Part shown: positions 4,563 to 14,404 of the stretch, piece by piece | How the letters are laid out: each line of letters starts with the position of its first letter | Numbering within the stretch: the stretch's first letter is position 1 | Origin: Nocardioidaceae bacterium | GTDB taxonomy: Bacteria > Actinomycetota > Actinomycetes > Propionibacteriales > Nocardioidaceae | Assembly (NCBI GenBank): GCA_017744365.1 | Contig: JAGIBL010000011.1 | Location: 1-63,798 of the forward strand | DNA: 63,798 bases | Direction: 5' to 3' | Position numbers and translations under genes: made by a program | The notes under the pieces: generated by a model | Told to the model about the DNA's origin: nothing | Databases searched by the model: none | The model's input: only the letters and a program-made list of their open reading frames with translations

Positions 4563-5727
4563 GCGGGACCCCCGGGTCCCGCAGCCGCTCGTCGAACGGC
4601 TGCCCGACGATCTCGCGGATCGGGCCGATCGCGTCCCAGTCGTTGGCGTGCATGCCGGCGACCACCCGGCCACCGGCCACCCAGAACGCGGTGTAGACCC
4701 GGTCGCCGCCGGTCTCGCCGCGTACGACCAGCTCGTCGAAGCCCTCGGGGCCGACGTTGCCGACCAGCTCCATGCCGAAGTCGTACTGGTCGGTGAAGAA
4801 GTACGGCAGCCGGGTGTAGGGCTCGTCGCCGCCGAGCATCACCCCGGCCACGTGCTTGCCCTGCTCGATGGCGTTGTCCCAGTGCTCGACCCGGACCCGC
4901 CGGCCCAGCACCGGGTGGTCCTGGTTGGCCACGTCGCCGGCCGCGAACACGGCCGGGTCGGCCGAGCGCAGCCGGGCGTCGACCAGCAGGCCGTTGTCCA
5001 CCGCGAGGCCGGCGTCGCGCCCGACCTGGTCGTCGGGGGCCGCGCCGATCCCGACCACGACGAGGTCGGGGGTGACCCGGTGCCCGTCGGCCAGGGTCAC
5101 CTCGCCGTCGCTCACCGACGCGATCGAGGTGCCCAGGTGCAGGTCGACGCCGTGCTCGCGGTGCAGTGCGGCGAACGAGGCGCCCAGCTCGGGGCCCATC
5201 ACCGCGAGCAGCGGCTGGGCGGCGGTCTCGACCGCCGTCACCTCGGCGCCGGCGTGCCGCGCCGCCGAGGCCACCTCCAGGCCGATCCAGCCGGCGCCGA
5301 CGATGAGCACCGTGCCCTGGAGCCGGTCCTTGAGCCGCAGCGAGTCCTCCAGGGTGCGCAGGTAGAGCGGCTGCAGCGGCTCGAGGTCGGCCAGCCGGCG
5401 CGGCTGCGACCCGGTGGTCAGCAGCAGCCGGTCGTAGGAGATCTGTGTGCCTGCCACCTCGACGTGCTTGCGGTCCCGGTCGATGGCGGTGACCCGGGCG
5501 TCCGTGCGCAGGTCGACCTGCTGGTCGGCGTACCAGGCGCGGTCGTGCACGAAGACGACGTCGGGCTCCTTGTCGCCGAGCAGCACGCTCTTGGACAGCG
5601 GCGGTCGCTCGTACGGCGGGTGCGGCTCGGCCCCGAGCAGGGTGATGTCCTCGGTGTAGCCCTGCTTGCGCAGCTCCTCCACGGCGTTCGCGCCGGCGAG
5701 CCCGGCTCCGACGACGACGATGTTCAC
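4543..5727 (-). CDS. FAD-dependent NAD(P)H:ferredoxin reductase-like oxidoreductase
   Basis: 394 residues from GTG 5727, chosen for an AGGAGG box just upstream. FAD-binding GAGLAGANA (about residue 7), PPYERPPLSK, NAD-binding GAGWIGLEVA mid-protein and the second FAD motif VFAAGDVAN are typical of rubredoxin/ferredoxin reductases serving cytochrome P450 or dioxygenase systems. The start overlaps the folE stop by 4 nt, so the two proteins are made together. No ferredoxin or P450 gene is nearby, so its electron acceptor is unknown. Confidence 0.9.
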   Translation of the reverse strand: MNIVVVGAGLAGANAVEELRKQGYTEDITLLGAEPHPPYERPPLSKSVLLGDKEPDVVFVHDRAWYADQQVDLRTDARVTAIDRDRKHVEVAGTQISYDRLLLTTGSQPRRLADLEPLQPLYLRTLEDSLRLKDRLQGTVLIVGAGWIGLEVASAARHAGAEVTAVETAAQPLLAVMGPELGASFAALHREHGVDLHLGTSIASVSDGEVTLADGHRVTPDLVVVGIGAAPDDQVGRDAGLAVDNGLLVDARLRSADPAVFAAGDVANQDHPVLGRRVRVEHWDNAIEQGKHVAGVMLGGDEPYTRLPYFFTDQYDFGMELVGNVGPEGFDELVVRGETGGDRVYTAFWVAGGRVVAGMHANDWDAIGPIREIVGQPFDERLRDPGVPLSELAS

Positions 5728-6329
5728 GATGTCCTCCTGGTGAGTGCGAGGAACTCGGCCCGGCTGCACTGGTCGTCGCGCAGCCGTCCGAACAGGGCCG
5801 AGGTGGCCGTGCGCGCTCCCGGTACCCGGGCGCCGCGCAGGCTCATGCAGGTGTGCTCCGCCTCGATGACCACGCCGACGCCGCGCGGGTCCAGCTCGCG
5901 CTGCAGGTGGTCGGCGATGTTCATCGTCAGCCGCTCCTGGGTCTGCGGGCGGCGGGCATGCAGCTCGACCATCCGGGCGAGCTTGGAGAGACCGAGGATC
6001 CGGCTGCCCGGCAGGTAGCCGACGTGCGCGACGCCGACGAACGGCAGCACGTGGTGCTCGCAGAGCGACTGGACCGGGATGTCCTGCACGAGGACGAGTT
6101 CATCGTAGTTCTCGTCGTTGGGGAAGGTGGTGAGCTCGAACTCGGGGGCGCTGGTCATCTCGAGCAGCGCGTGCGCCATCCGCCGCGGCGTCTCGGCCAG
6201 GTTCTCGTCGGTGAGGTCGAGCCCGAGCGCGCTCAGCAGGTCGGCCGCCGCGCGCTCGGCCGCGTCGGGGTCGCGGTCGGGGACCGGACGTGTGATCCGG
6301 GGGCGCCAGGGGGAGGTCGCGAGGGACAT
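5724..6329 (-). CDS. folE: GTP cyclohydrolase I
   Basis: 201 residues. Converts GTP to 7,8-dihydroneopterin triphosphate, the first step to tetrahydrofolate or pterins. The zinc ligands Cys90 and His93 (SLCEHHVLPF) and Cys161 (EHTCMSLRGAR) and the EETPRRMA-like region (AETPRRMAHA) are all present. ATG 6329 lies 7 nt after the TAGGTT -10 box, so the mRNA is predicted leaderless. It is not next to other folate genes; instead it is coupled to a FAD reductase. It may be a second, non-housekeeping FolE (inference). Confidence 0.95.
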   Translation of the reverse strand: MSLATSPWRPRITRPVPDRDPDAAERAAADLLSALGLDLTDENLAETPRRMAHALLEMTSAPEFELTTFPNDENYDELVLVQDIPVQSLCEHHVLPFVGVAHVGYLPGSRILGLSKLARMVELHARRPQTQERLTMNIADHLQRELDPRGVGVVIEAEHTCMSLRGARVPGARTATSALFGRLRDDQCSRAEFLALTRRTS

Positions 6330-6336
6330 GTCCCCG

Positions 6337-6366
6337 AACCTAGAACGCACCTCGTTCTTGTGTCAA
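6337..6366 (-). promoter_or_regulatory. folE promoter (leaderless)
   Basis: Minus strand: TTGACA (6361-6366), 18-bp spacer, TAGGTT (6337-6342), then 7 nt to the ATG. The hexamers are close to the housekeeping consensus and put the transcription start at or beside the start codon. Confidence 0.7.
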
Positions 6367-6420
6367 TGATCTTTATTTTTAGAAACGGAAGTCGGTGCCT
6401 GCTGTGAAGATGGGGGCACC

Positions 6421-7701
6421 ATGAGCCGGTGGAGCCTGCAGGCGGTCGAGAAGATCGCCCCCGACGCTGCCTCGCTGGCGGCAGGCCGAAAGCTGGCGAC
6501 GCCCGGGCCGTGGTCCGAGACGGGGAGCACCGAGGCGCTCGTCTGGGGAAAGTGCCAGGGGTCGGGCAAGACGCCGTACCAGGTGAGCATCGACCTCAAC
6601 GGGCCCGCCTACCGGTGCTCCTGCCCGAGCCGGAAGTTCCCCTGCAAGCACGCGATCGCGCTGCTGCTGCTCTGGGTGCGGGGCGACGGCTCGGTCGCGG
6701 ACGTGGCCGAGGGCGCCGACTTCGCCCGGGAGTGGGCGCAGACCCGGGCTGAGCGGGCAGCCGCGAGCGCCGCGCGGCCGGCCAAGGAGGTCGACCCGGC
6801 CGCCCGGGCGAAGCGGGTCGAGGACCGGCTGGCCCGGATGGACGCGGGCCTCGAGGACTTCGGCCTGTGGCTGACCGACCTGGTCCGCGCCGGCACGGTC
6901 GCGGCCAAGCGGCACCCGTACGCCTGGTGGGACGGGGTCGCCGCCCGGCTGGTGGACGCGCAGCTGCCGGGGCTCGCCGAGCAGGTCCGTGACCTCGCCT
7001 CGGAGATCCATCGCCGCGACGACTGGGCCGACCACCTCCTCGGCCGGCTCGGGCTGTGGTGGACTGCGACCCGGGCCTGGCAACGGCGGGCCGAGCTCGA
7101 CGAGCGCACGCTGGCCGACCTGCGCGTCTGCCTGGGCTGGGCCACCGCCACCGAGGACGTGCGCACCGCCGACGCGGTCCCGGGCCGCTGGCAGGTGCTC
7201 GGCGCGCACCGCTCCGACGACGGCCGGCTGCAGCAGCAGCGCACCTGGCTGCGCGAGGTGGAGTCCGGCGAGATCGTGGTGGTGCTCGACTTCGCGGCCG
7301 GCGCCAACCCGCTCCCGGCCGCCCGGCTCGTCGGCTCGGTGCTGGACACCACCGTCGCCCGCTACCCGGGCTCGTGGCCGCGGCGGGCGCTGTTCGCGAC
7401 CGAGCCGGCCCTGGCCGGGACCGACGCGACCCTGCCCGCCGGCACCTCGCTACGGGCGGCGCTCGACGTCCGGGCCGCGACCTGGGCGGAGAACCCGTGG
7501 GCGGCGCGGGTGCCGGTGCTGCTCGCGGACGCGGTGCTGTCCAGCACGCACCTGCACGACGCCACCGGTGCCGCGGTCCCGCTGCTCCCGGCGGAGAGCC
7601 CCTGGACGCTGATCGCGCTCACCGGAAGCCGGCCGACGACGGTCTTCGGCGAGCTCGAGGAGACCGGCTTCCGGCCGCTGGCCGTGGGACCCGCCTCGTG
7701 A
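6421..7701 (+). CDS. SWIM zinc-finger protein
   Basis: 426 residues. The SWIM finger is near the N-terminus: Cys66-x-Cys68 ... Cys75-x-His77 within YRCSCPSRKFPCKHAIAL. The rest is helical with a beta-rich C-terminal part and no catalytic motif I recognise. SWIM fingers bind DNA or proteins. It is the first gene of a five-gene block with overlapping starts and stops (SWIM, DUF5691, MoxR, DUF5682, VWA), so it probably recognises the target or partner of the ATPase module. Only a weak purine run precedes the ATG. Confidence 0.9.
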   Translation: MSRWSLQAVEKIAPDAASLAAGRKLATPGPWSETGSTEALVWGKCQGSGKTPYQVSIDLNGPAYRCSCPSRKFPCKHAIALLLLWVRGDGSVADVAEGADFAREWAQTRAERAAASAARPAKEVDPAARAKRVEDRLARMDAGLEDFGLWLTDLVRAGTVAAKRHPYAWWDGVAARLVDAQLPGLAEQVRDLASEIHRRDDWADHLLGRLGLWWTATRAWQRRAELDERTLADLRVCLGWATATEDVRTADAVPGRWQVLGAHRSDDGRLQQQRTWLREVESGEIVVVLDFAAGANPLPAARLVGSVLDTTVARYPGSWPRRALFATEPALAGTDATLPAGTSLRAALDVRAATWAENPWAARVPVLLADAVLSSTHLHDATGAAVPLLPAESPWTLIALTGSRPTTVFGELEETGFRPLAVGPAS

Positions 7702-9167
7702 CCGAGACTCTCGACACCTGGTGGCGCGACCTCGGCGGGGCCGCGCTGGTCGGTACCGCACGTCGTACGGTGCCCGCCGTTCCGGAGCCCCTGGTCGCCC
7801 GCAGCGACGCCCCGGCCGAGACCGCGCTCCTGGATGGCGCCGCCCTCGGGCACGCGCTGCGCCGGGCGGGCGCCGAGCCGGCGCTCGACCTGCCGATCCC
7901 GGACGCGGCGCCGGACGACGAGCGCCCGCCGGCTCCGTCCCGTGCCCGGCAGCTGCTCGACCTGCTGCTCACCCAGACGCCGGTCGGCCCCGGGCTCACC
8001 GGGCGCGCCGTCACCGTCTGGCTGGAGGAGGCCGGCGCGGCCGGATTCCGGGTTCCGCACGAGTCCCTGGTTCCGCTGCTGACCGCGGCCACGGCCGACC
8101 GCGGACTCCGTACGGCGGCTCGCGCGGTGCTCGACCGGCGCGGGCACTGGCTGGCCGGCGCGAACCCGGCCTGGGCCTGGGTCGCGGAGCAAGGCACGGA
8201 GGCCGGCACCGACCTCGCCGACCCCGCTGACTGGGCGCTCCTGGCCACCGACGAACGTGCCCGGCAGATAAGGCTGCTGCGCACGACCGACCCGGACGCG
8301 GGCCGGGCCCTGGTCGAGTCCGCCTGGTCGAACGACCCAGCCCCGGCACGCACGGCGCTGCTCGCCGCGCTCGGCACCGGGATCTCGCCCGCCGACGAAC
8401 CGCTGCTGGAGCGCGCCCTCGACGACCGGGCCGGAGGCGTCCGGGAGACGGCGCAGAACCTGCTCGACGGCCTGCCCACCTCGGCGCGGGCGCGGCGGCT
8501 CGGCGCGCTGCTCGCCCCGCTGGTCTCGACCTCGGGTCTGCTGAAGAAGAAGGTGCACGTCGAGCTCCCGGCCGACCCGGACGCGGCTGCCGTGCGGGAC
8601 GGTCTCGGCAAGGCGCTGCGCGGGCGTTCGCAGCGCGGGCTCTGGCTGGAGCGCCTCGCCGCGGGGGCGCCGCTGGAGACCTGGACCACCGCCACCGGGC
8701 TGGACCCGGCCGCGGTGGTGGCCGGCCTCGACGACGCCGACGCGCTGCGCGGGCTGGTGACCGCCGCCGTCGAGCGCGCCGACCCGGTCTGGGCGGCGGC
8801 GCTGAGCGACCGGTTCTGGGACCCGCAGCTGCTCGGCTGCCTGCCGGTGGACCAGCGCGTGGCCCGGGTGCGGCGCCGGATCGAGCAGGCCAAGAGCCTG
8901 GCCGAGATCACCGGTGCCGCCGCGGTGGTGCCGGGTCCGTGGCCCGAGGAGCTGAGCCGGGCCGTGCTGCAGCGGCTCGGCAAGGTCGAGTGGACGGCGT
9001 ACCAGCTCGCCGACGTGACCTTCGTGCTCGCCACCGGGCTGCCCCCGTCGGCCGCTCCGGCGATCCGCAAGCTCGCCGAGAGCGCCGAGGCCAAGCCGTC
9101 CGACCCGCTCTACCGGCTCGCGCAGTACCTCACCCTCGTCCCGACGATCAGGGAGTCCTTCCGATGA
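7698..9167 (+). CDS. DUF5691-family protein
   Basis: 489 residues from GTG 7698, which overlaps the SWIM stop by 4 nt (GTGA). It starts VTETLDTWWRDLGGAALVGT, a signature of the proteins that accompany SWIM/MoxR/VWA modules. The body is alpha-helical with HEAT-like repeats (for example about 215-330), suggesting a scaffold or adaptor. No catalytic motif is visible. A longer open frame upstream is antisense-like shadow of the SWIM gene and was discarded. Function unknown beyond the module. Confidence 0.85.
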   Translation: MTETLDTWWRDLGGAALVGTARRTVPAVPEPLVARSDAPAETALLDGAALGHALRRAGAEPALDLPIPDAAPDDERPPAPSRARQLLDLLLTQTPVGPGLTGRAVTVWLEEAGAAGFRVPHESLVPLLTAATADRGLRTAARAVLDRRGHWLAGANPAWAWVAEQGTEAGTDLADPADWALLATDERARQIRLLRTTDPDAGRALVESAWSNDPAPARTALLAALGTGISPADEPLLERALDDRAGGVRETAQNLLDGLPTSARARRLGALLAPLVSTSGLLKKKVHVELPADPDAAAVRDGLGKALRGRSQRGLWLERLAAGAPLETWTTATGLDPAAVVAGLDDADALRGLVTAAVERADPVWAAALSDRFWDPQLLGCLPVDQRVARVRRRIEQAKSLAEITGAAAVVPGPWPEELSRAVLQRLGKVEWTAYQLADVTFVLATGLPPSAAPAIRKLAESAEAKPSDPLYRLAQYLTLVPTIRESFR

Positions 9168-10267
9168 CCGAGCTTTCGACGACCGCGACCACCGCCGTCC
9201 TCCGGGCCCACGCCGAGTCCGAGTACGCCGCCGAGCTCACCGCGCTCGCCGCCGCCGACGACCGGCCCAGGCCACCGCAGTGGCAGCTCTCGCCTTGGGC
9301 GGTGACCACCTACCTGCTCGGCGGCACGCTGCCCGACGGCACCGAGATCTCCGCGAAGTACCTGGGCCCGCGCCGGCTGATGGAGATCGCGGTCGCCTCC
9401 CTGGCCACCGACCGCGCACTGCTGCTGCTCGGCGTCCCGGGGACGGCGAAGACCTGGGTCGGCGAGCACCTGGCCGCCGCGGTCAGCGGCACCTCGACGA
9501 TGGTGGTGCAGGGCACCGCCGGCACCACCGAGGAGTCGCTGCGCTACGGCTGGAACTACGCCCGGCTGCTCTCCGAGGGGCCGACCCGGGAGGCGCTCGT
9601 GCCCAGTCCGGTGATGCGGGCGATGGAGAGCGGCAGCCTGGTCCGGCTCGAGGAGCTGACCCGGATGCCGGCCGACGTGCAGGACGCGCTCATCTCGATC
9701 CTGTCGGAGAAGACGCTGCCGGTGCCCGAGCTGGACACCGAGGTGCAGGCCCGCCAGGGCTTCAACGTGATCGCCACCGCGAACAACCGGGACAAGGGCG
9801 TCAACGACCTCTCCTCGGCGCTGAAGAGACGGTTCAACACGCTGGTGCTGCCGCTGCCGGACTCGCTGGAGCAGGAGGTCGAGATCGTCCGCACCCGGGT
9901 CGCCGCGATCGGACGATCGCTGCAGCTGCCGGCCGAGCTGGAGTCGCTCTCCGAGATCTCGCGGGTGGTGCAGATCTTCCGCGAGCTGCGCTCGGGCGCC
10001 ACCGCGGACCAGCGGACCACGGTGAAGTCGCCGTCCTCGACGCTGTCGACGGCCGAGGCGATCTCGGTGATGACCAACGGCGCCGCCCTGGCCGCGCACT
10101 TCGGGGACGGCGTGGTCCGTGCCGACGACGTCGCCGCCAGCCTCACCGGTGCCGTGGTCAAGGACCCGGTCCAGGACCGGATCGTCTGGCAGGAGTACCT
10201 CGAGACCGTCGTCAAGGACCGCCCCGAGTGGGCCGACCTCTACCGCGCCTGCCGTGAGCTCACCTGA
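9164..10267 (+). CDS. MoxR-type AAA+ ATPase
   Basis: 367 residues, ATG overlapping the previous stop by 4 nt. Walker A is GVPGTAKT (90-97). The Walker B position reads LVRLEEL (159-165), with Glu where most MoxR proteins have Asp. Sensor 1 is VIATANNRDKG and an arginine finger candidate lies in ALKRRFN. MoxR ATPases work with VWA proteins as metal-insertion or remodelling chaperones; a VWA partner is two genes downstream. The small lid domain occupies about 240-350. Confidence 0.93.
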   Translation: MTELSTTATTAVLRAHAESEYAAELTALAAADDRPRPPQWQLSPWAVTTYLLGGTLPDGTEISAKYLGPRRLMEIAVASLATDRALLLLGVPGTAKTWVGEHLAAAVSGTSTMVVQGTAGTTEESLRYGWNYARLLSEGPTREALVPSPVMRAMESGSLVRLEELTRMPADVQDALISILSEKTLPVPELDTEVQARQGFNVIATANNRDKGVNDLSSALKRRFNTLVLPLPDSLEQEVEIVRTRVAAIGRSLQLPAELESLSEISRVVQIFRELRSGATADQRTTVKSPSSTLSTAEAISVMTNGAALAAHFGDGVVRADDVAASLTGAVVKDPVQDRIVWQEYLETVVKDRPEWADLYRACRELT

Positions 10268-12464
10268 AGCGCGCGTCGAGGTGCTCGGCGTCCGGCACCA
10301 CGGACCCGGGTCCGCCCGGTCGGTCCTCGGCGCCCTCGACGAGCTCGAGCCTGACGTGGTGGTGATCGAGGGCGCGCCGGAGCTGGACGCCCTGGTGGCC
10401 ACCGCCGGGGACGAGGACCTGGTGCCGCCGGTGGCGGCGCTCGTGTACGTCGCCGAGCAGCCGCGCCGGGCGGCGTTCTACCCGCTGGCCCTGTTCTCGC
10501 CGGAGTGGGTCGCGCTGCGCTGGGCCGCCGGGCACGGCGCGACGGTGCGCTTCGCCGACCTGCCCGCGACCCACGCGCTGGCCGACCGGGAGGGCGAGGA
10601 GCACGCCGACCACACCGATCCGATCGGCACGTTGGCCCTCGCCGCCGGGTACGACGACGCCGAGCGCTGGTGGGAGGACGCGGTCGAGCACCGCACCTCC
10701 TCCTCGCTGGACGGCTTCGCGGCGATCCGGGCGGCGATGGCCGAGGTCCGCGCCGGCGGGGCCGGCGACGATCCCGAGAACGCCCGTCGCGAGGCCGCGA
10801 TGCGCCGGGTGCTGCGAACGGCCCTCAAGGAGGGCGCGCGCCGGGTCGCGGTCGTCTGCGGCGCCTTCCACGCCCCGGCTCTGCACCCGGACGCGTGGCC
10901 GGGCGCGACCCACGACACCAAGCTGCTGGCCGGGCTGCCGAAGGTGAAGGTCGCGGTGACCTGGGTCCCCTGGACCGCGCAGCGGCTGGCGGCGGCCAGC
11001 GGGTACGGCGCGGGGGTGCGCTCGCCCGGGTGGTACCAGCACCTGTTCGTCACCGCGGACCGCCCGGCCGAGGTGGTCCCGGGCTGGCTGACCCGGGTGG
11101 CCCGCGAGCTGCGCGCCGAGGGCCTGGACGCGGCCCCGGCCACCGTGGTCGAGGCGGTCCGGATGGCTGACGCGCTCGCCGCGGTGCGCAACCGCCCCTC
11201 GGTCGGGCTCAGCGAGCTGACCGACGCCACCCGGACCGTGCTCTGCGGCGGCTCCGACCTTCCGCTGCAGCTGATCGAGCAGCGCCTGGTCATCGGCGAG
11301 GTGCTCGGCCAGGTCCCGGAGACGGTCCCGCTGACCCCGCTGGCGCAGGACCTCGCCAAGGCCCAGCGCTCGCTGCGGCTCAAGCCGAGCGTGGTGCCGA
11401 GCACGGTCACGCTGGACCTGCGCAAGGAGGCGCAGCGCGACCGGTCGGTGCTGCTGCACCGGCTGCGGCTGCTCGGCGTGCACTGGGGCCGGCCGGGGGA
11501 GGCGGGCCGGTCGACCGGCACCTTCAAGGAGGCGTGGGACGTGCAGTGGCACCCCGAGTTCGCGGTCGACCTGATCGAGGCCGGGCTGTACGGCACGACG
11601 GTGCTGGACGCGGCCGAGGCGAAGGTGGCCGAGCTTGCCCGGGAGGCGCCCGACCTGGCCACCCTCGGCAGCCTGGTCGAGGAGTGCCTGACCGCGGACC
11701 TGCCCGGCGCACTCGACACGGTGGTGGACACGCTGGCCGAGCGCACCGCCCGGCAGCACGACAGCCTGGCCCTCCTCGAGGCGATCGAGCCGCTGGCCCG
11801 GACCCGGCGCTACGGCGACGTACGGGAGGCCGACACCAGCCGGGTCGCCGGGGTGCTGCACACCGTGGTGATCCGCGCCGCGGTCGGGCTGCGTGCCGCT
11901 TGCGCGTCGCTCGACGACGACGCCGCCGCGCGGATGCGGTCCGCCGTCGACGCCGCCCACCGCGGCGTCGCCCTGGTCGAGGACGACGCGCTGGCCGGCC
12001 CGTGGCGTGACGCCCTGGTCGCGGTCGCCGCGGACGACCGGATCCACGGCCTGGTCAGCGGCCGGGTGAACAGGCTGCTCCTCGACGGTGGCGTCCTGGA
12101 CGCCGCCGAGGCGGCCCGCCGGCTCAGCCGCCGGCTCTCGCGGGGTGCGGTTGCGGTCGCCGGGGCGGCCTGGCTGGACGGCTTCCTGGAGGGGGATGCG
12201 CTGCTGCTGCTGCACGACCGCGAGCTGCTGCCGATCGTGGACGCCTGGGTCGCCGAGGTCGACGAGACCACCTTCGAGGACCTGCTGCCGCTGCTGCGCC
12301 GCACGTTCTCCCGTTTCGAGCCCGGCGCCCGCCGCCAGCTCGGCAGCCGGCTGCGCCGGCCCGGCACCGCGGAGGCGGTCGCGCCCGCCGCGCTGGACCT
12401 GGACCGCGGGCTGGCGGCGATGAACCGGGTCGCCGAGCTGCTCGGCCTGGAGGTGGCCCGATGA
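10254..12464 (+). CDS. DUF5682-family protein, possible EreA/TraB/ChaN-like hydrolase fold
   Basis: 736 residues from GTG 10254 (14-nt overlap with moxR). The first 210 residues show GVRHHGPGSA (His15, His16), VVVIEGAPE (Glu39), REAAMRRVL (about 180-188) and VVCGAFHAPA (His206). An early His, a Glu at a strand end, an R..M helix and a late G-x2-H recall the erythromycin esterase/TIKI/TraB/ChaN superfamily; this link is my inference. The remaining 500 residues are helical. It probably provides a catalytic activity gated by the MoxR-VWA pair. Confidence 0.82.
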   Translation: MSSPEARVEVLGVRHHGPGSARSVLGALDELEPDVVVIEGAPELDALVATAGDEDLVPPVAALVYVAEQPRRAAFYPLALFSPEWVALRWAAGHGATVRFADLPATHALADREGEEHADHTDPIGTLALAAGYDDAERWWEDAVEHRTSSSLDGFAAIRAAMAEVRAGGAGDDPENARREAAMRRVLRTALKEGARRVAVVCGAFHAPALHPDAWPGATHDTKLLAGLPKVKVAVTWVPWTAQRLAAASGYGAGVRSPGWYQHLFVTADRPAEVVPGWLTRVARELRAEGLDAAPATVVEAVRMADALAAVRNRPSVGLSELTDATRTVLCGGSDLPLQLIEQRLVIGEVLGQVPETVPLTPLAQDLAKAQRSLRLKPSVVPSTVTLDLRKEAQRDRSVLLHRLRLLGVHWGRPGEAGRSTGTFKEAWDVQWHPEFAVDLIEAGLYGTTVLDAAEAKVAELAREAPDLATLGSLVEECLTADLPGALDTVVDTLAERTARQHDSLALLEAIEPLARTRRYGDVREADTSRVAGVLHTVVIRAAVGLRAACASLDDDAAARMRSAVDAAHRGVALVEDDALAGPWRDALVAVAADDRIHGLVSGRVNRLLLDGGVLDAAEAARRLSRRLSRGAVAVAGAAWLDGFLEGDALLLLHDRELLPIVDAWVAEVDETTFEDLLPLLRRTFSRFEPGARRQLGSRLRRPGTAEAVAPAALDLDRGLAAMNRVAELLGLEVAR

Positions 12465-13645
12465 GCACCGAGCACACCTCGGGGCGCCGCGACCGGCTGA
12501 CCCGCTGGCGGCTCGTCCTCGGCAGCGAGGCGGCCGAAGGACTCGGCGAGGGCATCGAGGGAGGCATCGCGCTCGGCGGCGACGACGCGCAGCGGGACCA
12601 GGCGCTGTCGGCTCTGTACGGCGACAGCCGCGACCGGCGCGGTGGCCTCGGCGGCTCGGCGCCCAAGGTGGCCCGCTGGCTCGGCGACATCCGCACCTAC
12701 TTCCCGTCCTCGGTGGTGCAGGTGATGCAGGCCGACGCGATGGACCGGCTCGGGTTGCACCAGCTGCTGCTCGAGCCCGAGCTGATGGAGTCGGTGCAGC
12801 CGGACATCGGGCTGGTCTCGACGCTGATGGGCCTGGGCCGGGTCATCCCGGAGCGCAGCCGGGAGACCGCGCGGGCCGTGGTCCGCACCGTGACCGATCA
12901 GCTCGAGGAACGGCTCCGGGCCCGCACCGTGCAGGCGGTGACCGGCGCGCTCAACCGAGCGGCCCGGACCCGGCGGCCCAAGCCGGCCGACATCGACTGG
13001 CGGCGCACCATCGCGGCCAACCTGAAGAACTACCTGCCTGAGCACCGGACGGTGGTGCCCGAGCGGCTGGTCGGCTACGCCCGCCGGACCACCCAGGTCG
13101 AGCGGCACGTCATCCTGTGCATCGACCAGTCCGGCTCGATGGCCGAGTCGGTGGTGTACTCCAGCGTCTTCGGCGCGGTGCTCGCCTCGCTGCGCTCGGT
13201 GGCCACCAGCCTGGTCGCGTTCGACACCGAGATCGTCGACCTGACCGACGAGATCGACGACCCGGTGGACGTGCTCTTCGGCGTCCAGCTCGGCGGGGGC
13301 ACCGACATCAACCGCGCGCTGGCCTACTGCCAGGGGCTGGTCCAGCAGCCCGCGGACACGGTGCTGGTGCTCATCAGCGACCTGTTCGAGGGCGGGATCG
13401 CCGAGGAGATGGTGCGCCGGGCGCGCGAGCTGGTCGACGCCGGCGTGACGGTGGTCGCGCTGCTCGCGCTCAGCGACTCCGGCGCTCCGGCGTACGACGC
13501 CGAGCACGCGGCCGCGCTCGCGGCGGTGGGCGTGCCCGCCTTCGCCTGCACCCCGGACCTGTTCCCGGACCTGATGGCGGCGGCCATCGAGCGCAGGGAC
13601 ATCAACGCCTGGGCAGCCAGCAACGACCTGGTGGTGAGTGGATAA
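12461..13645 (+). CDS. VWA-domain protein, MoxR partner
   Basis: 394 residues, ATG overlapping the DUF5682 stop by 4 nt. The von Willebrand A domain spans about 214-390 with a complete MIDAS: Asp222-x-Ser224-x-Ser226 (DQSGSM), Thr281 (GGGTDI) and Asp307 (LISDLFEGG). The N-terminal 200 residues are helical with the RTYFPSSVVQVMQ motif typical of these partners. No signal peptide or membrane segment, so the complex is cytoplasmic. It closes the five-gene module; the metal-bound domain would dock the client or the ATPase ring. Confidence 0.92.
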   Translation: MSTEHTSGRRDRLTRWRLVLGSEAAEGLGEGIEGGIALGGDDAQRDQALSALYGDSRDRRGGLGGSAPKVARWLGDIRTYFPSSVVQVMQADAMDRLGLHQLLLEPELMESVQPDIGLVSTLMGLGRVIPERSRETARAVVRTVTDQLEERLRARTVQAVTGALNRAARTRRPKPADIDWRRTIAANLKNYLPEHRTVVPERLVGYARRTTQVERHVILCIDQSGSMAESVVYSSVFGAVLASLRSVATSLVAFDTEIVDLTDEIDDPVDVLFGVQLGGGTDINRALAYCQGLVQQPADTVLVLISDLFEGGIAEEMVRRARELVDAGVTVVALLALSDSGAPAYDAEHAAALAAVGVPAFACTPDLFPDLMAAAIERRDINAWAASNDLVVSG

Positions 13646-13687: not shown

Positions 13688-14404
13688 TCAAGCACAGACC
13701 GCCGCGAACCTCTCCGCCAGCATCCGGGTCGCCCGCTCGATCTCGGCGTCGCGCGCCGTGAACGCGGCCCGGCCCTCCTCGACGCGCACCCGGTCGGGGT
13801 CGGTGCCGGTGAAGTCGTCGGCCCATTCCCCGTACGTCGCCGGCGAGATCTCTGGGTGGAACTGCACACCCCAGGCCCGCGCGCTGACCCGGAACGCCTG
13901 GTGCGGGTAGAGCGCCGAGCTGCCCAGCCAGGTCGCCCCCGGAGGCAGCGTCGCGATCGCGTCGCCGTGCATCGAGCCGGCCGGGAACGGCTCCGGCAGG
14001 CCGCCGAGCAGCGCGTCGCCGGCGGCGGCCGGACGCCAGCGCACCTCGACCACGCCGGCCTCGATGCCGGCCTCGCCCACGACCACCTCGCCGCCGCAGG
14101 TCTGCGCCAGCAGCTGCGCGCCCAGGCAGATCCCGAGCACCGGCACCTCCCGGGCGACCGCGTCCCGGTAGAGCACGCGGATGCCCTCGAGCCAGCCGAA
14201 CGTGGCGTCGTCGTGCACGCTCATCTCGCCGCCGAGCACGACCAGCGCGTCCGCCTCCACCGAGCCCGGCAGCGGCTCGCCGTCGTACGGGCGGATGACG
14301 CGGACGGCCAGCCCGGCCTCGTCGAACCAGCCGGCGAAACGGTCCAGCGGGTCGGAGGCGTCGGGCTGCACGACGAGCACGGTCTTGGTCACGGGCTTGG
14401 TCAC
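13688..14404 (-). CDS. class I glutamine amidotransferase-like protein
   Basis: 238 residues. The catalytic Cys lies in the nucleophile elbow GICLGAQLLA and the His-x-Glu of the triad in WGVQFHPE, as in GMP synthase (glutamine-hydrolysing) type domains. It stands alone with no synthetase domain, so it is either a gamma-glutamyl hydrolase-like enzyme or a glutaminase subunit. GTG 14404 is 7 nt from a TACCGT -10 box (14412-14417), predicting a leaderless mRNA; a second in-frame GTG lies 12 nt downstream. Convergent with the VWA gene, 42 nt apart. Confidence 0.87.
   Translation of the reverse strand: MTKPVTKTVLVVQPDASDPLDRFAGWFDEAGLAVRVIRPYDGEPLPGSVEADALVVLGGEMSVHDDATFGWLEGIRVLYRDAVAREVPVLGICLGAQLLAQTCGGEVVVGEAGIEAGVVEVRWRPAAAGDALLGGLPEPFPAGSMHGDAIATLPPGATWLGSSALYPHQAFRVSARAWGVQFHPEISPATYGEWADDFTGTDPDRVRVEEGRAAFTARDAEIERATRMLAERFAAVCA

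Follow-up and report, generated by a model that had tools for sequence, protein, structure and literature searches.

A recurring five-gene MoxR-VWA module with a predicted hydrolase and a DNA-damage-type promoter motif, related to Escherichia coli yehLMPQ

What might five genes do together that follow one another on a single strand and encode a SWIM zinc-finger protein, a DUF5691 protein, a MoxR-type AAA+ ATPase, a DUF5682 protein and a VWA protein? They occupy positions 6421 to 13645 of the window, by which we mean the whole stretch of 63,798 nucleotides (nt) analysed here, contig JAGIBL010000011.1 of the Nocardioidaceae bacterium assembly GCA_017744365.1. An initial annotation of this DNA had described them as a single module with no assigned job, and no function for the set was indeed found in open-licence PMC full text, among the matches listed. 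Our analysis confirmed that the five genes are a real recurring module and not a chance association. We propose, with a probability of about one half, that they form an AAA+/VWA remodeller which is induced by DNA damage and which, through its predicted hydrolase, would open and cut client proteins. This is based on the gene content, its co-occurrence across phyla, the ATPase motifs and those of the metal ion-dependent adhesion site (MIDAS), a predicted fold with invariant His and Glu residues, and a promoter motif. The features are listed below; all five Pfam matches exceed the family cut-offs.

6421..7701, + strand: SWIM zinc-finger gene, 426 amino acids (aa), ATG start, Pfam PF04434 (1.7e-7)
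7698..9167, + strand: DUF5691 gene, 489 aa, GTG start, Pfam PF18944 (9.7e-105)
9164..10267, + strand: MoxR-type AAA+ ATPase gene (YehL-like), 367 aa, ATG start, AAA_5 (4e-38)
10254..12464, + strand: DUF5682 gene, 736 aa, GTG start (alternative 10281), Pfam PF18934 (2.2e-243)
10254..11048, + strand: predicted TIKI/ChaN/EreC-like hydrolase domain of DUF5682, residues about 1-265, with invariant H15, E39, E84 and H206
12461..13645, + strand: VWA gene, 394 aa, ATG start, VWA_CoxE (7.4e-53)
6390..6411, + strand: degenerate RecA-NDp/PafBC-like candidate motif, AGTCGGTG-N8-GANNNT, 2 mismatches to the consensus that we assume

Among 198 genomes of the phylum, DUF5691 exceeded the Pfam cut-off in 16, the window's own genome counted (19 at E<=0.001), and in all 16 the five genes are joined (the window and loci L127-L141). 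The gene-neighbourhood check thus bears out the single module, and DUF5691 was not found apart from its partners in the genomes sampled; it also lies inside the module in 7/7 further genomes in which the family exceeds the cut-off. DUF5682 is present in 17 of the 198 genomes, namely the same 16 and one (G124) with the sister form described below as type A. The arrangement varies: the set, hereafter type B, is colinear in nine of the 16 genomes, whereas in the seven genomes of family f3 SWIM-DUF5691 and MoxR-DUF5682-VWA form two divergent transcripts. This family is probably Streptomyces, judging from a type A protein (L023) that shares 73-76% identity with loci from named Streptomyces. Outside the phylum, SWIM-DUF5691-MoxR-DUF5682 is contiguous in Massilia, Tahibacter and Verrucomicrobium (the stretch up to DUF5682), and Deinococcus taeanensis has the complete set in the same order with one small extra open reading frame (ORF). 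Within the genus of the window, few genomes encode the type B SWIM protein (1/23 others). A DUF5691-MoxR fusion (P0238) may be due to a frameshift and was not used. In two f3 loci, L149 (6181-10721) and L150 (8014-12870), the genes are arranged in a third way, as VWA-MoxR-DUF5682, and a DUF5682 lies at a distance.

In the window, SWIM/DUF5691, DUF5691/MoxR and DUF5682/VWA overlap by 4 nt each and MoxR/DUF5682 by 14 nt. Both neighbouring genes, one for GTP cyclohydrolase I (5727-6350) and another at 13691-14404, lie on the minus strand, and the five genes are therefore a self-contained unit. The statement that every junction overlaps holds plainly for the three 4-nt overlaps, but the 14-nt overlap requires the GTG at 10254 as start of DUF5682 and turns into a 13-nt gap if the GTG at 10281 is used instead, as is consistent with the 727-aa protein (P0001) of the public protein set. 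We favour 10254, as the structure model requires residues 7-13 for its first beta strand. In the nine colinear loci, for which a script took the start nearest to the upstream stop, start codons allow the 4-nt DUF5682/VWA overlap in 9/9, while the remaining junctions vary. The claim of an obligatory synthesis in step was thus overstated, given one start-dependent overlap and two divergent transcripts in 7/16 genomes.

The MoxR protein has the Walker A (GVPGTAKT), Walker B-like (RLEELTR) and sensor 1 (TAN) motifs and the arginine finger (RRF) of an AAA+ ATPase. In 113 aligned segments, which include seven genes read twice from overlapping loci, G90, P92, G93, K96, E163 and E164 are kept in 112 (the other one being gapped) and T205, N207, R222 and R223 in all. 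The usual Walker B motif of MoxR proteins has Asp-Glu. Here, R-h-E-E-h-T-R is invariant at this place (9644-9664 in the window) and is also found in YehL of E. coli, and the Glu-Glu is possibly a hallmark of the YehL branch. The VWA protein has an intact MIDAS (DQSGS at residue 222, T281 and D307), with D222, S224 and S226 in 101 of 102 segments and T281 and D307 in 100 of 102, the remaining cases being gapped except for one N at T281. Judged by these motifs, the initial annotation was right about a MoxR-VWA remodeller. MoxR hexamers are described as docking on VWA proteins and twisting a linker, with the MIDAS binding the target (PMC9976466, PMC13036017). The DUF5682 and VWA proteins very likely act together, because they form one open ORF in five loci and because of the 4-nt overlap available in the colinear loci. 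The single ORFs (L018-L022, identical to L143-L147) encode 1,341-1,645 aa.

DUF5682, called a putative hydrolase from the outset, was modelled by AlphaFold2 with a mean predicted local distance difference test score of 92.2, and its C-terminal half is long and helical. As the fold search with the full-length protein was dominated by helical repeats, the N-terminal domain was folded separately. Residues 2-220 fold like TIKI, ChaN and EreC hydrolases with moderate Z scores and the model contains the parallel beta-sheet of the TIKI fold; the top matches are to entries of Tetrahymena mitochondrial complex IV, which we did not assign to a family. H15, E39, E84 and H206 are invariant in 67/67 sequences. 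As in the TIKI/TraB/ChaN/erythromycin-esterase group, a His follows strand 1, a Glu strand 2 and a GxxH a later strand, so that H15, E39 and H206 lie in matching places; the Glu expected at -2 of the first His is V, I or M, and E84 could not be mapped. DUF5682 differs from this group in the unmatched second Glu and the helical half, and it gave no convincing sequence-level match to solved structures. From the model, we predict that it includes a TIKI-superfamily-like hydrolase domain.

The SWIM zinc finger named in the initial annotation, C-x-C-x(6)-C-x-H at residues 66-77, is intact, and C66, C68, C75 and H77 are invariant in 18/18 proteins. The helical scaffold that the annotation saw in DUF5691 is putative and suggested by database names ('HEAT repeat').

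In E. coli K-12, yehL-yehM-yehP-yehQ are contiguous and correspond to MoxR-DUF5682-VWA-SWIM, the order that we call type A. The window's MoxR is 38.7-39.2% identical to YehL over 341-352 residues and its VWA protein 35-36% identical to YehP. YehL has given its name to a MoxR subfamily defined by sequence similarity and local gene structure (PMC3893208). Both the identity to YehL and the neighbours (DUF5682-VWA and SWIM, as in E. coli) place the window's MoxR in this subfamily, an assignment by pairwise identity and neighbourhood. We conclude that the window module is a sister form of yehLMPQ. In E. coli, as in the window, MoxR-DUF5682-VWA goes with a SWIM protein and R-h-E-E-h-T-R, but the SWIM gene stands last and DUF4132 is found where the window has DUF5691. 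For molR of E. coli, regulation by DNA damage is reported. The initial annotation had overlooked this relationship, DUF4132 as the alternative to DUF5691, and the promoter motif discussed below.

The named type A loci, the best 80 of 576 with some genera repeated, bear titles from Actinomycetota, Proteobacteria, Myxococcota, Planctomycetes, Verrucomicrobia, Firmicutes, Bacteroidales and Acidobacteria. MoxR-DUF5682-VWA-SWIM order is found in 69 of them, eight are interrupted by contig ends, and three (L076, L086, L091) are without MoxR and SWIM by the models used. Clustering of the flanks revealed DUF4132 as an additional type A partner. Of 83 loci, 12 could not be evaluated; 66 of the other 71 have DUF4132, immediately upstream in 55 and downstream only in nine, and the exceptions are L044, L063, L066, L081 and L098. 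More than one DUF4132 ORF lies near 23 of these 66 modules (L034, L041, L042, L046, L049, L079 and others). In the stretch read of the 16 type B loci, DUF4132 is absent. Among 20 DUF4132 proteins, seven have a WGR domain and seven HEAT_2 repeats. The ideas that DUF5691 is a shortened DUF4132 (hhalign probability 0.6) or that YehQ is a SWIM-DUF5691 fusion (0.2) found no support, DUF5691 being found by hhalign in neither YehQ nor DUF4132. The SWIM proteins of the two forms have only the SWIM finger in common according to hhalign, and many YehQ proteins have a second SWIM-like motif. DUF5691 and DUF4132 therefore seem to occupy alternative slots without being homologous, as far as hhalign comparisons show.

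The DUF4132 part of E. coli is the yehF-yehI stretch, for which we take molR to be the older name. The letters of yehF were found within the DUF4132 gene of another E. coli strain, and the region of the pseudogene yehH represents another copy of DUF4132. The yehLMPQ stretch is near-core in the species: among 5,426 complete genomes, 5,162 contain 80% of it or more, and 5,320 of 5,322 placements are chromosomal.

For regulation, TGTCRGTG-N8-TANNNT was used, which we take to be the RecA-NDp/PafBC consensus; the LexA and RDRM consensus letters are likewise those that we assume. The window carries a weak version, AGTCGGTG-N8-GAAGAT at 6390-6411, with two mismatches, beginning 31 nt before the SWIM start, and one relative of the genus has a motif with three mismatches at the same distance. 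The motif was sought in the 120 nt that precede the SWIM gene of type B in 44 of 45 fetched loci (L202, a partial match of 94 residues, was dropped); loci were fetched at up to 30 per scan and are thus a sample of the relatives. With at most two mismatches it was present in 35/44 of these actinobacterial loci, and exact in 18, compared with 1/44 for the reversed motif and 12 of 2,200 random 110-nt gene-side segments of the same loci at the same stringency, though the loci share ancestry and are hence not independent. All 17 f3 loci have the exact motif, directed in the divergent ones at SWIM-DUF5691 only. Among the 27 others, one is exact, seven have at most one and 18 at most two mismatches, often at one spot, e.g. 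at -35 or -36 in 8/8 loci of family f72; the motif is missing in 2/3 loci of family f1, 4/8 of f57, 1/3 of f58 and 2/2 of f73, and eight non-f3 type B loci (L134-L141) lack an exact one.

The motif also occurs elsewhere in these genomes. The own genome has 25 exact copies, one just before recA, versus none of the reversed motif, and seven f3 genomes have 29-70 each versus 0-3. In f3, the exact motif stands directly before DUF4132 on the same strand in the type A locus L148, some 6 kb ahead of MoxR in the five fused loci, where a same-strand gene run begins, and 2.3-2.6 kb before the set on the same strand in L149 and L150, where it is not established as the operon head. Taking all forms together, 15/15 f3 loci have an exact same-strand upstream motif, with two more exact matches elsewhere in 24 loci. 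For type A, seven exact same-strand motifs fall into 62 module heads of 700 nt each versus eight in the whole 1.28 Mb. RecA-NDp/PafBC-type control of the module in actinobacteria is thus predicted from the motif. RecA-NDp is described as the target of PafBC in the LexA-independent DNA-damage response, beyond mycobacteria as well (PMC8223512, PMC6789036).

Several observations accompany the motif. In L143-L145 the exact copy precedes a gene for a protein of about 290 aa, in which MGWV-AGDYEV occurs close to the start. A large upstream protein is encoded in L143-L147. Genomes G280 and G285 contain many exact motifs with an identical 8-base spacer, and in the own genome (G000; C2:126, C5:126, C12:520, C12:353463, C14:98) identical copies lie at contig ends or close to them, which looks as if a repeated or mobile multi-copy gene had a DNA-damage promoter.

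In E. coli, a CTG-N10-CAG site, presumably the molR box, lies 9 nt before yehF. As another site of equal score occurs within the 20 kb and 12 such sites were found versus 5.07 expected, the sequence of this box alone proves little, and at the 15 proteobacterial type A loci other than E. coli no convincing LexA box was found. E. coli molR is nevertheless listed among LexA-regulated genes (PMC11039860, PMC4576408), and a DUF4132 operon of Deinococcus radiodurans is reported to be strongly up on DdrO depletion (PMC8533742), so that damage control of the DUF4132 partner is reported in two phyla besides actinobacteria. In D. taeanensis the best site of 20 kb resembling the RDRM (radiation/desiccation response motif) matches 12 of 17 letters and starts 36 nt before SWIM, which is suggestive only. 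If the links to LexA, PafBC and DdrO are true, the same module is under three damage regulators that are unrelated to one another, and without a role in damage survival this would be difficult to account for.

How might such a module work? By analogy to NorQ and NorD, the MoxR hexamer would dock on the VWA protein, whose MIDAS could grip an acidic patch of the client. The SWIM protein and its large partner (DUF5691, or DUF4132 in the sister form) may deliver the client, or else damaged nucleic acid. Twisting by MoxR at the expense of ATP would then expose a bond, which DUF5682, held by the VWA protein and acting as the enzyme, would hydrolyse. In eukaryotes, pairs of AAA+ segregases and proteases clear proteins that are stuck on DNA. 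A more specific and bolder version, which we regard as unlikely, is that the YehL branch is a DNA-damage-induced extraction-and-cleavage machine in which SWIM and DUF5691 or WGR-DUF4132 find damaged, protein-blocked DNA, MoxR-VWA pulls the blocking protein and DUF5682 cuts it. Such a machine would have come independently under the control of LexA in E. coli, of PafBC in actinobacteria and possibly of DdrO in Deinococcus.

Alternatively, the module could be a dedicated chaperone for metal or cofactor insertion like NorQ-NorD or CoxD-CoxE, with DUF5682 and SWIM handling the metal or the metalloenzyme client. Like NorQ-NorD, CbbQ-CbbO and RavA-ViaA it joins a MoxR AAA+ ring to a MIDAS VWA partner (PMC9976466), MoxR-VWA pairs with known jobs are reported to insert metals or cofactors (PMC9976466, PMC13036017), MolR was named for molybdate use (via a reference in PMC8533742) and NorQ is among the solved relatives. 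On the other hand, the flank clusters inspected and the Pfam families listed contain no metalloenzyme gene, one flank protein having molybdopterin-binding domains. We know of no DUF5682-SWIM-DUF5691 set in NorQ-NorD, CbbQ-CbbO or RavA-ViaA. Identity with RavA-ViaA or GvpN is not supported by family models, as the RavA-stimulator and GvpN models stay far below cut-off on the module proteins and the ViaA model PRK10997 reaches 17 bits against a cut-off of 500. A chaperone of this kind also leaves the DNA-damage motif and the LexA listing unexplained, and we regard it as unlikely.

It is also improbable, in our view, that the five genes are a conflict or suicide system in which a TIKI-like, toxin-like effector is restrained and freed by the MoxR-VWA switch upon infection or DNA damage. 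Such a role would be in keeping with the existence of ternary MoxR-vWA conflict systems, which likewise join MoxR and VWA to a third, enzyme-like part (PMC7159879), with TIKI folds in toxins and effectors (PMC6254334), with the patchy distribution in the genus, with a damage motif that suits a suicide switch and with a plasmid location of some copies (DUF5682 matches in 36 of 72,556 plasmid records). However, Pfam found no VMAP, iSTAND, FtsH or beta-propeller component in the five proteins, the bpMoxR model reaches 21.7 bits against a cut-off of 27, and the terms SWIM, YehL, TraB and TIKI were searched for in PMC7159879 and not found. The expected proximity to defence islands was not supported either. 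We scanned 61 flank proteins (53 of 112 listed, from 14 of 15 type B loci, and eight of the window; 98 type A flank proteins were left out), and PADLOC matched only seven families at E<=1e-10, mad3 in three proteins and the others in one each. Flank Pfam families are mostly metabolic among the 25 of 49 listed, a pattern scan of viral contigs returned no relative, and the sister operon is near-core and chromosomal in E. coli. A general envelope or cytosol protein-stress chaperone unconnected with DNA damage, with the motif as mere side regulation, as might be suggested by a MoxR protein that raised tolerance to several stresses (PMC11432383) and by RavA-ViaA acting on respiratory complexes (PMC3893208), is very unlikely in view of the strong motif enrichment before the module and of molR as a listed LexA gene (PMC11039860).

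Returning to the DNA-damage-inducible remodeller, the YehL subfamily is named but jobless in the literature covered, while molR is on the LexA list. One set in two forms, with a predicted TIKI-type hydrolase and damage-type control signals, makes the roles of YehL and molR testable together. We know of no DNA-repair role of molR, and if the extraction-and-cleavage version were true, this orphan SOS gene of E. coli would gain a job. More generally, the remodeller, if real, would be a widespread AAA+ machine that processes proteins under genotoxic stress, has so far escaped recognition and is present in nearly all E. coli. As a side observation from another actinobacterium, Mycobacterium smegmatis without pafBC is reported to have lower levels of MoxR1 and MoxR2, which are two other MoxR proteins (PMC5656591).

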